NCBI GenBank assembly: GCA_031289775.1
Contig: JAITOY010000044.1
Span: 1-64,000 of the forward strand
DNA length: 64,000 bases
Reading direction: 5' to 3'
From: Synergistaceae bacterium
GTDB taxonomy: Bacteria; Synergistota; Synergistia; Synergistales; Synergistaceae
Part shown: positions 22,761-41,012 of the stretch, piece after piece
Position numbering within the stretch: the stretch's first letter is position 1
Layout: every line of letters starts with the position of its first letter
Position numbers and translations under genes: made by a program
Notes under the pieces: model-generated
The model's database searches: none
What the model was told of the DNA's origin: nothing
The model's input: only the letters and a program-made list of their open reading frames with translations

Positions 22761-22891
22761 AGCCAGGGCGAAAAACTTGGGGCGCAGCCCGGACGCGGCC
22801 ATAAATTTGTCTCATCATACTACGCGCGCGATGCCGGGCTGCCGGCGTCGCGCGCCCAAGGCAGCCTTACGGCCATGTTTATTTTTTGTTC

Positions 22892-22920
22892 TTTTCATCG
22901 CGCCAATTTGGGGTTATTAT
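22892..22920 (+). promoter_or_regulatory. Candidate promoter of the Synergist-CTERM surface protein gene
   Basis: TTTTCA (22892-22897), a 17-bp spacer and TATTAT (22915-22920) lie about 34 bp before the ATG at 22954, with AAGGAGG in between. Confidence 0.45.
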
Positions 22921-22953
22921 GACCATTACCCTTTGAAGGAGGTATTTTATGTT

Positions 22954-24558
22954 ATGAAGAGGATTCTATCTTTGAAAAACCTGACGCGCCTGCCGCTTGC
23001 CGCGGTAATTTTCGCCCTGGTCATGACCCTTGCGGACGCGCCTGCGGCCTGTGCGTCCGTTTCATTTTCCCCGATCAACCCGACGAACGGCAACATTCGG
23101 ACGTTTACAGAGAATGTGGATCTGCCCACTGATGTCTCGTTCGACTTCGCTCTTCCTACCGATGTCGACACTCTCAAAATAATAAAAGCGGATGAAACCG
23201 ACCTGTCGGATCTAGACGCGTTTCTTGCTTATGTCAATATCGAAGGATTGCTAGTTTCAGTCACCTCTCCCGATATCAGTACGGGAGAGGTGACGTTCGC
23301 CGGAAATTACCGTGGAGATTCGGTTCCTGATTTGGTTCCTTACACGTACAAGCTGAAGCTTCTGGGTTATGATAGCCTCGACCCGAGCACCTTAAAAGCC
23401 AGCGAGGACATCACGATCACGATCCGCCGCTACAGCGCGGAGGCGGGGCCGGCCAACCTGCCCATTAACAGCGCCGGCGACGTGTCTTACGGCATAACGT
23501 TCTTCGAGAACCTTCCGAATCGCGCCTCAGATGTTACGGGCACGCTGCCTGTCATCGACATAGTTCCAATCGCTCAGGCGCCTTGGGACAGCCTGCCCTG
23601 GAACGGCCTCACGATTAGCGTTTCGGCGGCGGACAAGCGGATAAACGTCTCCGGCAGGCCGGAAAGGGAGGCGATGAGCCCCATTTACAACCTCAAAGCG
23701 ACTGTCACTGATCCGCTCTCGTTGTCATGCGAGATTTTATTCGCTTTCCAAGTGAACGTCACGTCCGCTACCGAGGCGGAGCTCGAACGCCTCTACTTCG
23801 TCCCTGATGACCCGACATTCGAGTACCCGACAGGCGTAAACCTCACGGGCAAGACTATCGACTTCACGCCGGAGCCGCGCTATTTCAACTTCGACAACTA
23901 CGCTCTCACGGTCTTGCCCTCGACGTGGCGCGGCGCCACGTTTGGCCCCGCTCGCGTGAACGCCTCCGCCGCCCTCCCGGTAATCCGCGTCGAGGTCGCC
24001 GGCACATTGTCGGCCGCGGGCGAGGAGGATTTCAAGCTCGTTGCGACAAAAAAAACTGACGGCAGTGAGGTGACGGCGGACTTTCATGTCAAGGCCTCGC
24101 CGTACAGCCTCAACGGAAACGCCTTCAAGCCATCTGATTCCATCAAGATCGAGCTCGACGGGCATGGACGGTCCAGCCTCGCGACAGGCGAGCTCAACTA
24201 CATTCACTTCCCCTTCGCCGGGTCGATATCCGATATCACAGTAATATGCCGGGATCCGTGGGGAAGCCCCGTGACGCTGACCGACTACGACGGCAGGCCT
24301 TATTCGAACGCCGACAGCGGGTTTTACGCGTTCGAGTCCAGCAGCTCGATGGAGGTCTGGTTCATTCCGGCGTCGCGCGGCGCGTACACTTTCGACATTT
24401 ACTACAAGGGCTCGGACGGGCAGTTCCACCAGGAGAGCAGGACTCTCCCCTCTGACAACGCGGGCGACGGCGCGGGCGGCGCCGGCTGCGAGACCGGCGC
24501 CGGGTTCGTCGCGATCGCTTTGGCGGCGCTGGCCGCCGCGACGCTCCGCAAGCGCTGA
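22954..24558 (+). CDS. Secreted repeat-like surface protein with Synergist-CTERM tail
   Basis: This 534-residue protein has a signal peptide (MKRILSLKNLTRLPLAAVIF then an Ala-rich cleavage region near ACAS), a long beta-rich body of about 460 residues and a C-terminal sorting tail of the type glycine-rich linker, GAGC, hydrophobic stretch AGFVAIALAALAAATL, then RKR. This matches the Synergist-CTERM pattern, thought to be processed like other CTERM signals. The body has no recognised catalytic motif; it may consist of immunoglobulin-like or cadherin-like folds (e.g. ISVSAADKRINVSGRPE near residue 225). Codon use matches the neighbours. Function unknown beyond surface exposure. Confidence 0.75.
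   Translation: MKRILSLKNLTRLPLAAVIFALVMTLADAPAACASVSFSPINPTNGNIRTFTENVDLPTDVSFDFALPTDVDTLKIIKADETDLSDLDAFLAYVNIEGLLVSVTSPDISTGEVTFAGNYRGDSVPDLVPYTYKLKLLGYDSLDPSTLKASEDITITIRRYSAEAGPANLPINSAGDVSYGITFFENLPNRASDVTGTLPVIDIVPIAQAPWDSLPWNGLTISVSAADKRINVSGRPEREAMSPIYNLKATVTDPLSLSCEILFAFQVNVTSATEAELERLYFVPDDPTFEYPTGVNLTGKTIDFTPEPRYFNFDNYALTVLPSTWRGATFGPARVNASAALPVIRVEVAGTLSAAGEEDFKLVATKKTDGSEVTADFHVKASPYSLNGNAFKPSDSIKIELDGHGRSSLATGELNYIHFPFAGSISDITVICRDPWGSPVTLTDYDGRPYSNADSGFYAFESSSSMEVWFIPASRGAYTFDIYYKGSDGQFHQESRTLPSDNAGDGAGGAGCETGAGFVAIALAALAAATLRKR
23260..23294. repeat. Perfect inverted repeat inside the Synergist-CTERM gene
   Basis: 13-nt arms GTCACCTCTCCCG/CGGGAGAGGTGAC flank a 9-nt loop within the coding sequence (codons about 103-114). 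Confidence 0.6.
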
Positions 24559-35775: not shown

Positions 35776-36156
35776 ATGGGCATCCTGAATGGCGTTTCTG
35801 ACGTTTTTTTAAAGTTTTTCGAGCTCATGGAGGCCGAGGGGCGCGAACTCAGGAAAAACACGGCCGCGCTCCTTTTAGGCGGCGTCCTCTTTTTTGTCGC
35901 CGGGTGTCTGGCGACAGCCGGCGCCGCGCTTATTCTTTTCGGCACATACCGCCTCATGCTGCCGACGCTCGGCGGCGCGCTCGCTTGTCTCGCGACCGGG
36001 GCGCTCGCGCTTGCCGCCGCCGCTTCGCTCTTTGCGTTCGCTTACAAGCGCGCCGCGGAAAATTTCCCCGCCCGGCAAAACGAGGTGGCTAACGAGCCGG
36101 ACAAAAATGCCGAAACGGACGCCTCGCCGGACAAAGACGTCCGGGAGAACGGCTGA
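35776..36156 (+). CDS. YqjE/phage holin III-like inner-membrane protein
   Basis: This 126-residue protein has an N-terminal amphipathic segment, then two membrane helices (about residues 30-55 and 62-88) and a charged, acidic C-terminal tail. It matches the YqjE/actinophage holin III-like layout (LFELMEAEGRELRKNTAALLLGGVLFF-type start). No other phage genes are nearby, so it is more likely a chromosomal YqjE-type stress protein than a holin. It sits between a YqjD-like gene and a small YqjK-like gene, 10 bp before the latter. Confidence 0.65.
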   Translation: MGILNGVSDVFLKFFELMEAEGRELRKNTAALLLGGVLFFVAGCLATAGAALILFGTYRLMLPTLGGALACLATGALALAAAASLFAFAYKRAAENFPARQNEVANEPDKNAETDASPDKDVRENG

Positions 36157-36473: not shown

Positions 36474-36501
36474 TTGATGTATCATTTATACTATATATAT
36501 A
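36474..36501 (+). promoter_or_regulatory. Candidate promoter of the HD-GYP signalling operon
   Basis: TTGATG (36474-36479), a 16-bp spacer and a TATATA stretch (36496-36501) in a strongly AT-rich region about 75 bp upstream of the ATC start at 36578. Confidence 0.45.
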
Positions 36502-36577
36502 TTTTATATGATCCCTCATTTGGAAGACGCAAAAGCAGAAAAGGTCGTTTTTTGTAAAACCGCAGGAGGCGTGCGAC

Positions 36578-37627
36578 ATCAAACAGGTTCTCGTAGTTGA
36601 CGATAATATAGCGAGTCTCACTCAGATCGGGAAACATCTGGAGGGCATTTACGATGTCATCCTCGTCAAGTCCGGCGCGCAGGCGCTGCGATTTTGCGCA
36701 AGAGAGAGGCCCGACATCATTCTGGTCGACGTCGAGATGCCGGAGATGGACGGGTTCGAAACGGTCGAGAGGATGAAACTGATCCCGGATATCGCGTCTG
36801 TCCCTGTCATCTTCATCACAGGCAACATCGACGAAGGAACCGAGATCAGGGCGCTCGAATCCGGCGCGATAGACTTCATCACAAAACCCGTCGCGGGAAG
36901 CATACTGCACCACAGGATGGAGCTTCATCTTCAGTTGTACAGTTACCAGACGAACCTCGAAAACATGTCGAGCGAGCTCGAGAACAACGTCGTCGAGTGC
37001 TTCGCCGACCTCATCGAGTGCAAGGACGAGAACACTGGCGGGCACGTTATGCGCACGAGCAGGTACGTCGATATCATAGGCCGTGAGCTTTTGAGGATGG
37101 GCGTCTTCGGCAAGTATCTGACGGCGCCGGAGCTCGAGCTTATGGTGCGGGCCGCGCCGTTCCACGACATCGGGAAAATAGGGGTCAGCGACGTGATACT
37201 TCTCAAACCAAGCGGCCTCACGGACGAAGAGTACGCCCAGGCGAAGGCGCATACGCTGATCGGGGGGCGAATCCTTCTCAACATATATAAACGCACGCCG
37301 TCCCAGCGTTACCTCAAATACGCGGCGCGGATGGCCGAGGGACACCACGAGAGATACGACGGCGCCGGATATCCTAGAGGACTCGCCGGCGAAGACATTC
37401 CGGTCTGCTGTCGGATAATGTCCGTGGCGAACGTGTATGACGCTTGCATAACGGATCGAATATATCGCAAGGCGCGTACGCACGACGAGGCGAGGGAGAT
37501 CATCACAAGCGGTTCCGGAACTGAGTTCGACCCCCGCGTGGTCGACGCCTTCATGATGGTCAGGGATGCGTTTTCCTCGCTGAAAGTCCAGTCATATCAA
37601 TTATTTGGCGACGCGGGGCGAATTTGA
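36578..37627 (+). CDS. Response regulator with REC and HD-GYP domains; apparent ATC start
   Basis: This 349-residue protein has an N-terminal receiver (QVLVVDDN, phospho-acceptor D51 in LVDVEMPEMDG, lysine in TKPVAG) and an HD-GYP cyclic-di-GMP phosphodiesterase domain (ENTGGHVMRTSRY, HDIGKIG, HHERYDGAGYPRGL). The paralogue next door starts MKEILVVDDN; the matching codon here is ATC at 36578, 8 nt after a perfect AGGAGG. No ATG, GTG or TTG exists in frame between the stop at 36509 and ATG 36737, which lies after D51. So either ATC is the start or an ATG has been lost. The paralogue follows after 5 bp. Confidence 0.8.
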   Translation: MKQVLVVDDNIASLTQIGKHLEGIYDVILVKSGAQALRFCARERPDIILVDVEMPEMDGFETVERMKLIPDIASVPVIFITGNIDEGTEIRALESGAIDFITKPVAGSILHHRMELHLQLYSYQTNLENMSSELENNVVECFADLIECKDENTGGHVMRTSRYVDIIGRELLRMGVFGKYLTAPELELMVRAAPFHDIGKIGVSDVILLKPSGLTDEEYAQAKAHTLIGGRILLNIYKRTPSQRYLKYAARMAEGHHERYDGAGYPRGLAGEDIPVCCRIMSVANVYDACITDRIYRKARTHDEAREIITSGSGTEFDPRVVDAFMMVRDAFSSLKVQSYQLFGDAGRI

Positions 37628-37632
37628 CAGCC

Positions 37633-38697
37633 ATGAAAGAGATCCTGGTAGTCGACGACAATATGACAAACCTGGCACAGATAGAGGCGCAGATCTCGAA
37701 CCGCTACAGCGTAACCCTTGCGAAATCCGGGGCTCAGGCGCTTCGAATATGCGAACGCGAGCTGCCGGATCTCATTCTGCTCGACGTGGAGATGCCCGTT
37801 ATGGACGGCTTCGAAACGCTGGAGCGGCTGCGGGAAAAACCTGTGATGAGCCGCGTCCCGGTCATTTTTCTCACAGCGAGCAGAGACAGCGAAACTGAGG
37901 TCAAAGCCCTGAAATCCGGGGCGAGGGACTTCATCACGAAGCCGGTTGGGAAAAATATTCTGCTGCACAGGATAGAGCTCCATCTCAGAGTTTCCCTGTA
38001 CCAGACTCGCCTCGCCGACCGGGTCGCGGAGATGACGGACAGCATAGCGACCTCTTTTGCGGAGATGATAGAGTGCAGGGACGAGAACACCGGAGGGCAC
38101 GTCATTCGGACTAGCAAATATGTCGAGATGCTCGGCGTCGAAATGCTCGCGAGGAAACTTTTCGTGAGCGAATTGTCCGGAGGGGTGCTCGGTATGATGG
38201 TTCGCGCCGCGCCGCTTCATGACATAGGCAAAATCGCGATAAGCGACCGCATACTGCTCAAGCCCGGCAAGCTGGACAACGAGGAGTTCGCGGCCATCAA
38301 AAAACACGCGCCCATCGGCGCCGATATTTTAAAAAACATGTACTGCAGAATGCCCACTCAGGCATACCTCCAGTTCGCCATAATGATAGCCGGAACCCAC
38401 CACGAAAGGTACGACGGGAAGGGCTATCCCGCTGGGCTGTCCGGCGAGGAGATACCGCTGTGCGGCCGGATAATGGCTGTTGCCGACGTGTACGACGCCC
38501 TCGTGGACGACCGCGTTTACCGCAAGGGGATGAGCCATAAGGACGCCCTTGGCATAATAACGAGCGGCGCCGGCGCCCAATTCGACCCGCAAGTCGTGGA
38601 GATTTTCGACGACCGCAACCTCGCGTTCGCAAAGATGGCGGAGGAGGTCAATCTTCAGCATACGAGGGAGTGGCAGAGCAAGGGTTCCGATGAATAA
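37633..38697 (+). CDS. Response regulator with REC and HD-GYP domains
   Basis: This 354-residue protein is a close paralogue of the upstream gene. It has REC (MKEILVVDDN, D51 in LLDVEMPVMDG, K in ITKPVGKN) and HD-GYP (ENTGGHVIRTSKY, HDIGKIAISD, HHERYDGKGYPAGLSGEEIP) and would hydrolyse c-di-GMP when phosphorylated. The ATG at 37633 is preferred; a TTG at 37624 overlaps the upstream stop. A tandem duplication is likely. The hybrid kinase downstream is a natural phosphodonor. Confidence 0.9.
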   Translation: MKEILVVDDNMTNLAQIEAQISNRYSVTLAKSGAQALRICERELPDLILLDVEMPVMDGFETLERLREKPVMSRVPVIFLTASRDSETEVKALKSGARDFITKPVGKNILLHRIELHLRVSLYQTRLADRVAEMTDSIATSFAEMIECRDENTGGHVIRTSKYVEMLGVEMLARKLFVSELSGGVLGMMVRAAPLHDIGKIAISDRILLKPGKLDNEEFAAIKKHAPIGADILKNMYCRMPTQAYLQFAIMIAGTHHERYDGKGYPAGLSGEEIPLCGRIMAVADVYDALVDDRVYRKGMSHKDALGIITSGAGAQFDPQVVEIFDDRNLAFAKMAEEVNLQHTREWQSKGSDE

Positions 38698-38738: not shown

Positions 38739-41012
38739 ACGGATGACCCTGTAGCCGAGATCCTCTTCGAATATCTCCGCAGCGTGATGTACGGGCACGA
38801 GAAGGCAAAGCTCGATTTGAAGGAGCTTCCTTCCGGCTGCCAAAATCTTGGCAAGGGGCTGAAGTATTTCTCGGAATGCATCCACGAGATGAGGTCGTTC
38901 GCGAGCTCCCTGGCGAAAGGCGATCTCAGTTTAAAACTGCCCTCGCCAGGCAACGAGATGGCGGCCCCCCTGAAGGCCCTGCACGCTTCGCTCAAGCATT
39001 TGACGTGGCAGACTCAGCAGGTAGCGAAGGGCGACTACCAGCAGCGAGTCAAGTTCATGGGGGATTTCGCGGAGTCGTTCAACACAATGATAAAACAGCT
39101 CGAAAACCGCCTCACGGAGCTGAGCGAGGCAAAGACGCTCGCGGAGGCCGCGTCCGAGTCGAAAAGCGCATTCCTCGCGACGATGAGCCACGAGATACGC
39201 ACGCCCCTTAACGCGATCATAGGCCTTTCGGAGGTGGAGCTTCAGGGCAACCTGCCTGAGAATTCGCGCGACAGCCTCGAAAAAATATACAACTCCGGCT
39301 CGATTCTGCTCGGCATCGTAAACGACATACTCGACATCTCGAAGATCGAGGCGGGAAGCCTTGAACTGATCCCGGTGAATTACGAAGTGTCGGGGCTGAT
39401 AAACGACTCGGTGCAGCTTAACGTAGTGCGAGTCGGGACGAAAAATATCAGGTTCAGCCTCCAGGTGGACGAGACGATCCCGAGGGAGCTGTGCGGCGAC
39501 GAACTGCGGGTGAAGCAGCTCCTGAACAACATACTCTCGAACGCGTTCAAGTACACGGAGAAGGGCGCCGTCGAGCTCAAGGTGGACTGGCAAAGGATTG
39601 ACGACGAGGCTGAGCTCACATTCACAGTCAGCGACACGGGAAAGGGCATTAAAGCCGGGGACGTAGACAAGCTCTTCTCAAAATACAGCCAGCTCGATTC
39701 GCACGCCAACCGCCATATAGAAGGAACCGGTCTCGGGCTGTCAATAGCCAAACGACTCTCCGAGCTCATGGGCGGCACTATCTCCATCGATAGCGAATAC
39801 GGGGCGGGCAGCAGCTTCAAGTTCACAATCCGCCAGAAAATAGCGAACTCGACGCCCTTAGGCTGTGAAAACGCGAAGAAACTGAAGAGCCTCAGGTTCA
39901 TGGAGGGCCGCCGCAGACACGGCTATAATCTCGTGCGCTCATATATGCCATACGGCAGAATCCTAGTGGTGGACGACGTTCCGACGAACCTCGACGTTGT
40001 CAAGGGGCTGATGATGCCCTACGGACTCGCGGTGGATTACGCGGCGAGCGGGGCCGAGGCGATAGAGAAGATCCAGTCCGCTGGGGCGCCGCAGCAGGGA
40101 AGATACGACATCGTGTTCATGGATCACATGATGCCGGAGATGGACGGCGTGGAAGCGACCCGTATCATTCGCGAAATGGGAACGGACTACGCGCGCGACG
40201 TGCCGATAGTCGCGCTCACCGCTAACGCTATAGTCGGGAACGAAGAGATGTTCCTCGCGAACGGCTTCGACGGGTTCATATCGAAGCCAATCGACATAAT
40301 GCGGCTCGACATGACGCTGAATAAATGGGTGAGGGACAAGCAGAGCATGGATACGCTCCGCATGGCCGCCTCCGCGGCCGAGGAGATGGCGGTGTCCGAC
40401 GAATCTCCTGAGGGTGCGCTCGGCGAATTTTACGTCGAGGGCATAGACCTCGCGGCCGGCGTGTTGCGCTATGGGAAGACGACGTCATTCCTGAGCGTCC
40501 TGAAATCATTCGTCACGCACACTCCGCTCCTGCTCGACACGCTGCGCGACCCCTCAGTGTCGCTGCGGAACTACGCAATAGCGGTGCACGGCCTGAAGGG
40601 AAGCAGTTACGGAATATGCGCCGACGAGGTCGGCAGATGCGCCGAGGAGCTCGAAGCGGCGGCGAAGGCCGGCGACGGCAAAACCGTGCGGGCTAACAAC
40701 GCGAGGCTGATCGAACTGACCGAGTCTACCCTCTCGCGGCTCGCCTCGCTGCTCCGAAGCGTGGAAAAGAAAATCACCCCGAAGGAACATGCCGCCGCGC
40801 CGGACGAGAATTTGCTCGAAAAGATGAAGGACGCGGCAAGCCGATTCAAGACCTCTATCATCAAGGAGGCGCTCGATGAACTGGAGCGATTCGAGTACGA
40901 TTCGGGCGGAGAGTTGGTCGAGTGGCTTCGCGGCCAGATCGACGACCTCGAATACGACGCCATACTCGAACGCCTGAGCGCCCGTGGGATCAACCAGGCA
41001 ACAGGCTTGTAA
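38739..41012 (+). CDS. Hybrid sensor histidine kinase (HisKA-HATPase-REC-HPt); start probably non-ATG
   Basis: The protein is about 757 residues and has no membrane helix. It has an N-terminal segment with a HAMP-like region (LAKGDLSLKL and VAKGDYQQRV), HisKA with the phosphorylated histidine H151 in ATMSHEIRTPLN, an HATPase (N box LLNNILSNAFKYTE, G boxes DTGKGI and GTGLGLSI), a receiver (RILVVDDVPTN, acceptor D in VFMDHMMPEMDG) and an HPt domain (AVHGLKGSSYG). The frame is open and family-like back to DDPVAEILFEYLRSV, which precedes the first standard start (GTG 38784, ATG 38787). An ACG at 38739, 7 nt after AGAGGGG, gives a start beginning MDDPVAEI, matching relatives as I recall them; GTC 38736 is the alternative. 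Confidence 0.85.
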   Translation, partial: TDDPVAEILFEYLRSVMYGHEKAKLDLKELPSGCQNLGKGLKYFSECIHEMRSFASSLAKGDLSLKLPSPGNEMAAPLKALHASLKHLTWQTQQVAKGDYQQRVKFMGDFAESFNTMIKQLENRLTELSEAKTLAEAASESKSAFLATMSHEIRTPLNAIIGLSEVELQGNLPENSRDSLEKIYNSGSILLGIVNDILDISKIEAGSLELIPVNYEVSGLINDSVQLNVVRVGTKNIRFSLQVDETIPRELCGDELRVKQLLNNILSNAFKYTEKGAVELKVDWQRIDDEAELTFTVSDTGKGIKAGDVDKLFSKYSQLDSHANRHIEGTGLGLSIAKRLSELMGGTISIDSEYGAGSSFKFTIRQKIANSTPLGCENAKKLKSLRFMEGRRRHGYNLVRSYMPYGRILVVDDVPTNLDVVKGLMMPYGLAVDYAASGAEAIEKIQSAGAPQQGRYDIVFMDHMMPEMDGVEATRIIREMGTDYARDVPIVALTANAIVGNEEMFLANGFDGFISKPIDIMRLDMTLNKWVRDKQSMDTLRMAASAAEEMAVSDESPEGALGEFYVEGIDLAAGVLRYGKTTSFLSVLKSFVTHTPLLLDTLRDPSVSLRNYAIAVHGLKGSSYGICADEVGRCAEELEAAAKAGDGKTVRANNARLIELTESTLSRLASLLRSVEKKITPKEHAAAPDENLLEKMKDAASRFKTSIIKEALDELERFEYDSGGELVEWLRGQIDDLEYDAILERLSARGINQATGL

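Follow-up and report, generated by a model that had tools for sequence, protein, structure and literature searches.

An intact receiver and HD-GYP response regulator gene in a Synergistaceae draft genome is probably translated from an AUC codon

Organization of the locus and the start region of gene A

The window (the whole 64,000-nt stretch of DNA that was analysed) is contig C12 of the Synergistaceae draft genome G000, which comprises 2.37 Mb in 75 contigs and is 82.6% complete. At the locus, two HD-GYP response regulator genes, referred to as gene A and gene B, lie in tandem and are followed by a hybrid histidine kinase-like gene that is probably part of the same signalling unit (Table 1). 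Direct reading of the sequence revealed an AGGAGG, an 8-nt gap and an ATC, which together read CAGGAGGCGTGCGAC-ATC-AAACAGGTTCTCGTAGTTGACGAT, and this ATC was in frame with the entire 349-residue protein. The frame is closed upstream by an in-frame TGA at 36509-36511, and no ATG, GTG or TTG was found in it between this stop and the ATG at 36737, which encodes Met54, three residues beyond the receiver Asp D51. A preliminary description of this DNA had claimed the AGGAGG at this distance from ATC, a frame free of canonical starts as far as 36737, a first ATG lying past the phospho-acceptor and the alignment of ATC with the ATG of the tandem paralogue; we confirmed each of these points, and in the last case IKQVLVVDDN of gene A was aligned with MKEILVVDDN of gene B, the ATG of which lies at 37633. 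Its expectation that a standard gene caller would remove the key part of the receiver agrees with the position of the first canonical start, past D51.

Table 1. Features of the gene A locus and conserved genes elsewhere that lack a canonical start. Numbers without a locus name are window positions.
Feature	Position	Strand	Basis
Promoter-like stretch, two overlapping 9-of-12 matches	36474..36512	+	Consensus scan only; weak
Shine-Dalgarno AGGAGG, 8 nt 5' of ATC	36564..36569	+	Sequence; duplex energy
ATC, proposed start codon	36578..36580	+	Aligns with ATG/TTG/GTG of homologues; upstream frame without canonical start
Gene A, predicted receiver and HD-GYP response regulator, 349 aa, stop TGA 37625-37627	36578..37627	+	Pfam PF00072, PF13487
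Phospho-acceptor D51 codon	36728..36730	+	Homologue alignment
First in-frame canonical start (Met54), choice of a standard caller	36737..36739	+	Frame reading
Asn285 codon, position of PmGH metal-ligand Asp305	37430..37432	+	Homologue and 4mcw alignment
Gene B, tandem paralogue with weak Shine-Dalgarno; its ATG lies 5 nt 3' of the gene A stop	37633..38697	+	Sequence, Pfam, Shine-Dalgarno energy
Hybrid histidine kinase-like gene, downstream	38784..41012	+	Kinase motifs in translation; receiver match 39960-40295
G000 infC, apparent ATT start	L136:1752-1750, contig C43	-	
Other conserved genes without canonical start	L240:8128-9471, L258:8251-9381, L200:11679-13373, L140:4823-5584	-	Phosphomannomutase-like and M24 peptidase (G000), dnaG and CbiC (G002)

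From the AGGAGG frequency in this window, we computed that an exact AGGAGG would precede a given codon at any of five suitable spacings in approximately 0.2% of cases, and therefore the AGGAGG before ATC is not a chance likeness to a start site. Its duplex energy of about -10.3 kcal/mol was among the strongest of the family, as would be expected if a strong Shine-Dalgarno sequence offset a weak codon. The RNA structure around the start was not unusual (z 0.22), and the promoter consensus scan gave 3 matches in the region against 1.0 expected. A frameshift from GTG 36571 was considered and rejected; this codon lies 1 nt from the Shine-Dalgarno sequence, and its own frame closes after 9 codons.

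Initiation at another codon in the frame of gene A, either ATG 36737 with the loss of most of the receiver or ATT 36518, appears very improbable. The former is the first canonical start, and the HD-GYP domain (residues 141-321) would stay whole; however, residues 2-53 match the homologues and the receiver residues are kept, neither 36737 nor 36518 is preceded by an SD-like sequence at a suitable distance, and the homologues begin at the aligned codon rather than 20 codons earlier.

Domain composition and metal ligands of the gene A protein

Pfam matches and alignment revealed that gene A encodes an N-terminal receiver and a C-terminal HD-GYP domain with the HD, HHE and GYP motifs. Only one of 76 near-invariant columns departed from the family (L50V), and the branch of gene A in the tree was not flagged as long. 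Gene A showed no sign of decay.

The same combination of a receiver or sensor with an HD-GYP domain carrying these three motifs is present in PmGH (PDB 4mcw, PMC4159591) and PA4781 (PDB 4r8z). For the comparison of metal ligands, PmGH Asp305 was placed by alignment to PDB 4mcw, with the residue offset set on the HHE motif. Unlike PmGH, gene A, a predicted enzyme known from its sequence, has Asn at the Glu185 and Asp305 positions. The other six of the eight metal ligands are kept, so that the full ligand set of a trinuclear PmGH-type HD-GYP phosphodiesterase is incomplete. In PmGH, Asp305 is a metal ligand, and Ala mutants at E185 or D305 have lowered but not abolished activity (PMC4159591). 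The Asp305 position was occupied by Asn in 15 of 15 clade-A proteins and by Asp in 18 of 18 clade-B proteins (VANVYDA vs VADVYDA, clades described below); because it occurs in all 15 clade-A proteins, Asn at this position is, by the alignment, a clade trait and not damage.

The Asn at the Asp305 position suggests that gene A encodes a weaker or altered phosphodiesterase and that gene B is the more canonical one. The earlier proposal that the AUC keeps a c-di-GMP enzyme low thus needs qualifying, since gene A, with Asn in place of Asp305, may itself be a weak phosphodiesterase, the canonical enzyme being gene B.

Conservation of the tandem pair

In the tree, the close homologues were split into two clades, with clade A containing the first gene of the tandem pair and clade B containing the second. 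Several genomes of the same family carry the pair, as do Treponema and Spirochaetaceae drafts and one draft labelled Deltaproteobacteria, which is Myxococcota in the taxonomy of the tree. Judged only from their naming, the isolates resemble gut-metagenome bins. As a separate observation, a variant (Asn) first protein and a canonical (Asp) second protein within a conserved HD-GYP pair point to a possible division of labour.

The two genes overlapped in 9 of 12 homologous pairs. Translational coupling of gene A and gene B is likely because of these overlaps, the 5-nt gap between the two genes in the window and the weak Shine-Dalgarno sequence of gene B, and the AUC of gene A may limit the output of both proteins.

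Comparison with the starts of homologues

The homologues obtained by the contig scan showed identities of 61% or less, and the top ones came from drafts of Treponema, Spirochaetaceae and Deltaproteobacteria. When 33 close homologues were aligned, a start at ATG, GTG or TTG was found either in register with the ATC or up to nine codons further upstream, with only two exceptions, the window gene (ATC) and L126 (ACG). Apart from L126, all close orthologues whose start could be read have a canonical one, so the ATC of gene A is, on this alignment, a derived state, which would equally result from one mutation or from the miscalling of a base. L126 (G073:C137:1239-3299), which comes from a draft genome, contains both HD-GYP genes in one 702-aa open frame and looks fused; this frame has no canonical start, and the ACG lies at the aligned position.

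The canonical starts of nearly all orthologues would fit a recent natural mutation of ATG to ATC, by which the gene would be newly silenced or crippled and would go on to decay, and a strong Shine-Dalgarno sequence would still persist shortly after such an event. We nevertheless consider this history unlikely; gene A has no stop, frameshift or loss of a conserved residue, and non-canonical starts recur in the genome and the family, as described in the next two sections.

Assembly quality and non-canonical starts elsewhere in G000 and G002

A comparison of 494 conserved genes with the single-contig relative G002 revealed no truly broken gene in G000. The one candidate, in the window (O0_152/153), turned out to be transporter genes that overlap, together with a shadow frame. 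As far as frameshifts are concerned the assembly is clean, which proves no single base.

Stop-to-stop frames of 0.95 Mb of G000 were surveyed against all of G002 to detect conservation that extends upstream beyond the first canonical start, and a strict list was checked by eye. The survey gives a lower bound, since genes with a canonical codon just upstream are missed; an automated list made at a low threshold was dropped because it was too noisy, with GC-rich shadow frames. After removal of shadow frames by eye, three further genes without a canonical start were found among approximately 558 in G000. The infC gene reads AGGAGGTGGTTG-ATC-ATT-AGC, with an apparent ATT start preceded by ATC and located behind AGGAGGT; the TTG of this region is unlikely to be the start because it is too close to the Shine-Dalgarno sequence. 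The phosphomannomutase-like gene has AGGAGG, 8 nt and CTG, and the M24 peptidase gene reads GGGGGCGTT-ATC-ATT. In G002, dnaG reads GGAGGTGTGAACC-CTG, the CbiC gene has CTG at its start, and an apparent ATA start of infC was found by eye within L174 (G002:C1:757567-758374). The apparent infC starts in the two genomes, ATT and ATA, suggest that the family Synergistaceae has retained IF3 autocontrol by means of a weak start codon. As a matched control, other genes with an N-terminal receiver in G000 and G002 were inspected, and the window gene was the only one without a canonical start in this small set of 34.

These results also bear on a sequencing or assembly error, in which the true codon would be ATG and base 36580 would have been miscalled as C. 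G000 is an incomplete draft of the metagenome type and ATC is one base from ATG, but an error is distinctly unlikely, given that none of the 494 conserved genes was truly broken and that, of about 558 conserved genes, three or more besides gene A lack a canonical start, a rate far above that of plausible base errors.

Recurrence among HD-GYP regulators

Of 46 HD-GYP regulator genes taken from the same order, four had no canonical start: the window gene, L126, L026 and L027. The ACG of L126 is in a draft genome, while L026 and L027 are in single-contig genomes. In L026, an in-frame TAA lies between the last GTG and the ATA, and L027 reads AAGGGGGGACAGG-ATC-ATT. In congeners of L026, the same GGGGGTG is followed at the corresponding place by ATA (L023) or ATC (L024), and an upstream in-frame canonical codon is possible there. 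With the window gene left out, 3 of 45 HD-GYP regulators compared with about 6 of 1200 conserved genes gave a Fisher P of 0.003, and P was 0.03 when L126 was also dropped, in a test that was made after the cases were seen and included few genes.

By these sequences, a weak start is not unique to gene A. A stronger proposal is that AUC, AUA, AUU or ACG starts behind strong Shine-Dalgarno sequences have repeatedly and selectively arisen in HD-GYP regulators of Synergistaceae, whereby the level of IF3 or the growth state would set the capacity for c-di-GMP degradation and, in this genus, the start of gene A would meter gene B by coupling. We regard this proposal as doubtful and put it forward tentatively. 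Non-AUG starts behind strong Shine-Dalgarno sites are already known as a means of holding protein output down, and their recurrence in HD-GYP regulators, although unproven, is the more interesting lead.

Proposed mechanism and comparison with known systems

The preliminary description had considered either weak initiation at AUC or mutation of the start codon. The undecayed gene, the ATT start of infC and other such starts in the same genome, and the independent non-AUG starts in HD-GYP regulators from other members of the family favour the first option, which is not proven by them. We consider it likely, from the sequence comparisons, that gene A is intact and translated from a real but inefficient start at 36578, AUC being a very rare start codon. 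In the proposed mechanism, the 30S subunit would be held by AGGAGG, the initiator tRNA would pair poorly with AUC owing to the third-base mismatch, and IF3 would reject most initiation attempts, leaving synthesis of the protein far below the rate expected from AUG. The AUC would probably also limit gene B through translational coupling, given the 5-nt gap between the two genes and the weak Shine-Dalgarno sequence of gene B. The outcome would be a low, IF3-sensitive supply of an HD-GYP pair under two-component control.

In vitro, IF3 helps to reject codon-anticodon pairs with weak third-base pairing (PMC10158994). Non-AUG starts with strong Shine-Dalgarno sequences in S. aureus work at approximately 10-30% of the AUG rate (PMC13009471), and AUC and its kind reach 0.1-0.3% in E. 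coli and 5-20% in clostridia in one context (PMC9680021). As cited in two reports (PMC13009471, PMC9845219), E. coli infC (IF3) and pcnB resemble gene A in having a weak AUH start, in their case AUU, behind a Shine-Dalgarno sequence, with low and IF3-sensitive synthesis; the infC of the window genome, with its apparent ATT start, corresponds to E. coli infC. Gene A differs from the two E. coli genes in that it has AUC and not AUU, and its signalling product gives no reason to expect IF3 autoregulation. S. aureus ccpN (AUA) and cvfC1 (AUU) are likewise regulators with non-canonical starts and strong Shine-Dalgarno sequences; their conserved starts were proven by ribosome profiling and reporters (PMC13009471), whereas gene A is known from sequence alone.

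A gene caller restricted to ATG, GTG and TTG starts would remove most of the receiver from gene A and similar regulators, and such truncation would hide that these regulators are two-component outputs. If the recurrence among HD-GYP regulators is real, it would provide a testable case, from a phylum that has received little study, of start-codon choice used to keep a second-messenger enzyme at a low level.

Other features of the window

Upstream of gene A, positions 35776-36156 of the forward strand encode a small membrane protein flanked by two further small frames; its match to Pfam PF07332 is sub-threshold. This region may represent an operon of the ElaB/YqjD-YqjE type that is distinct from the HD-GYP genes. 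Positions 22777-24558 of the forward strand encode a large secreted protein with the C-terminal end GAGCETGAGFVAIALAALAAATLRKR, which we take to resemble a Synergistaceae C-terminal sorting signal.
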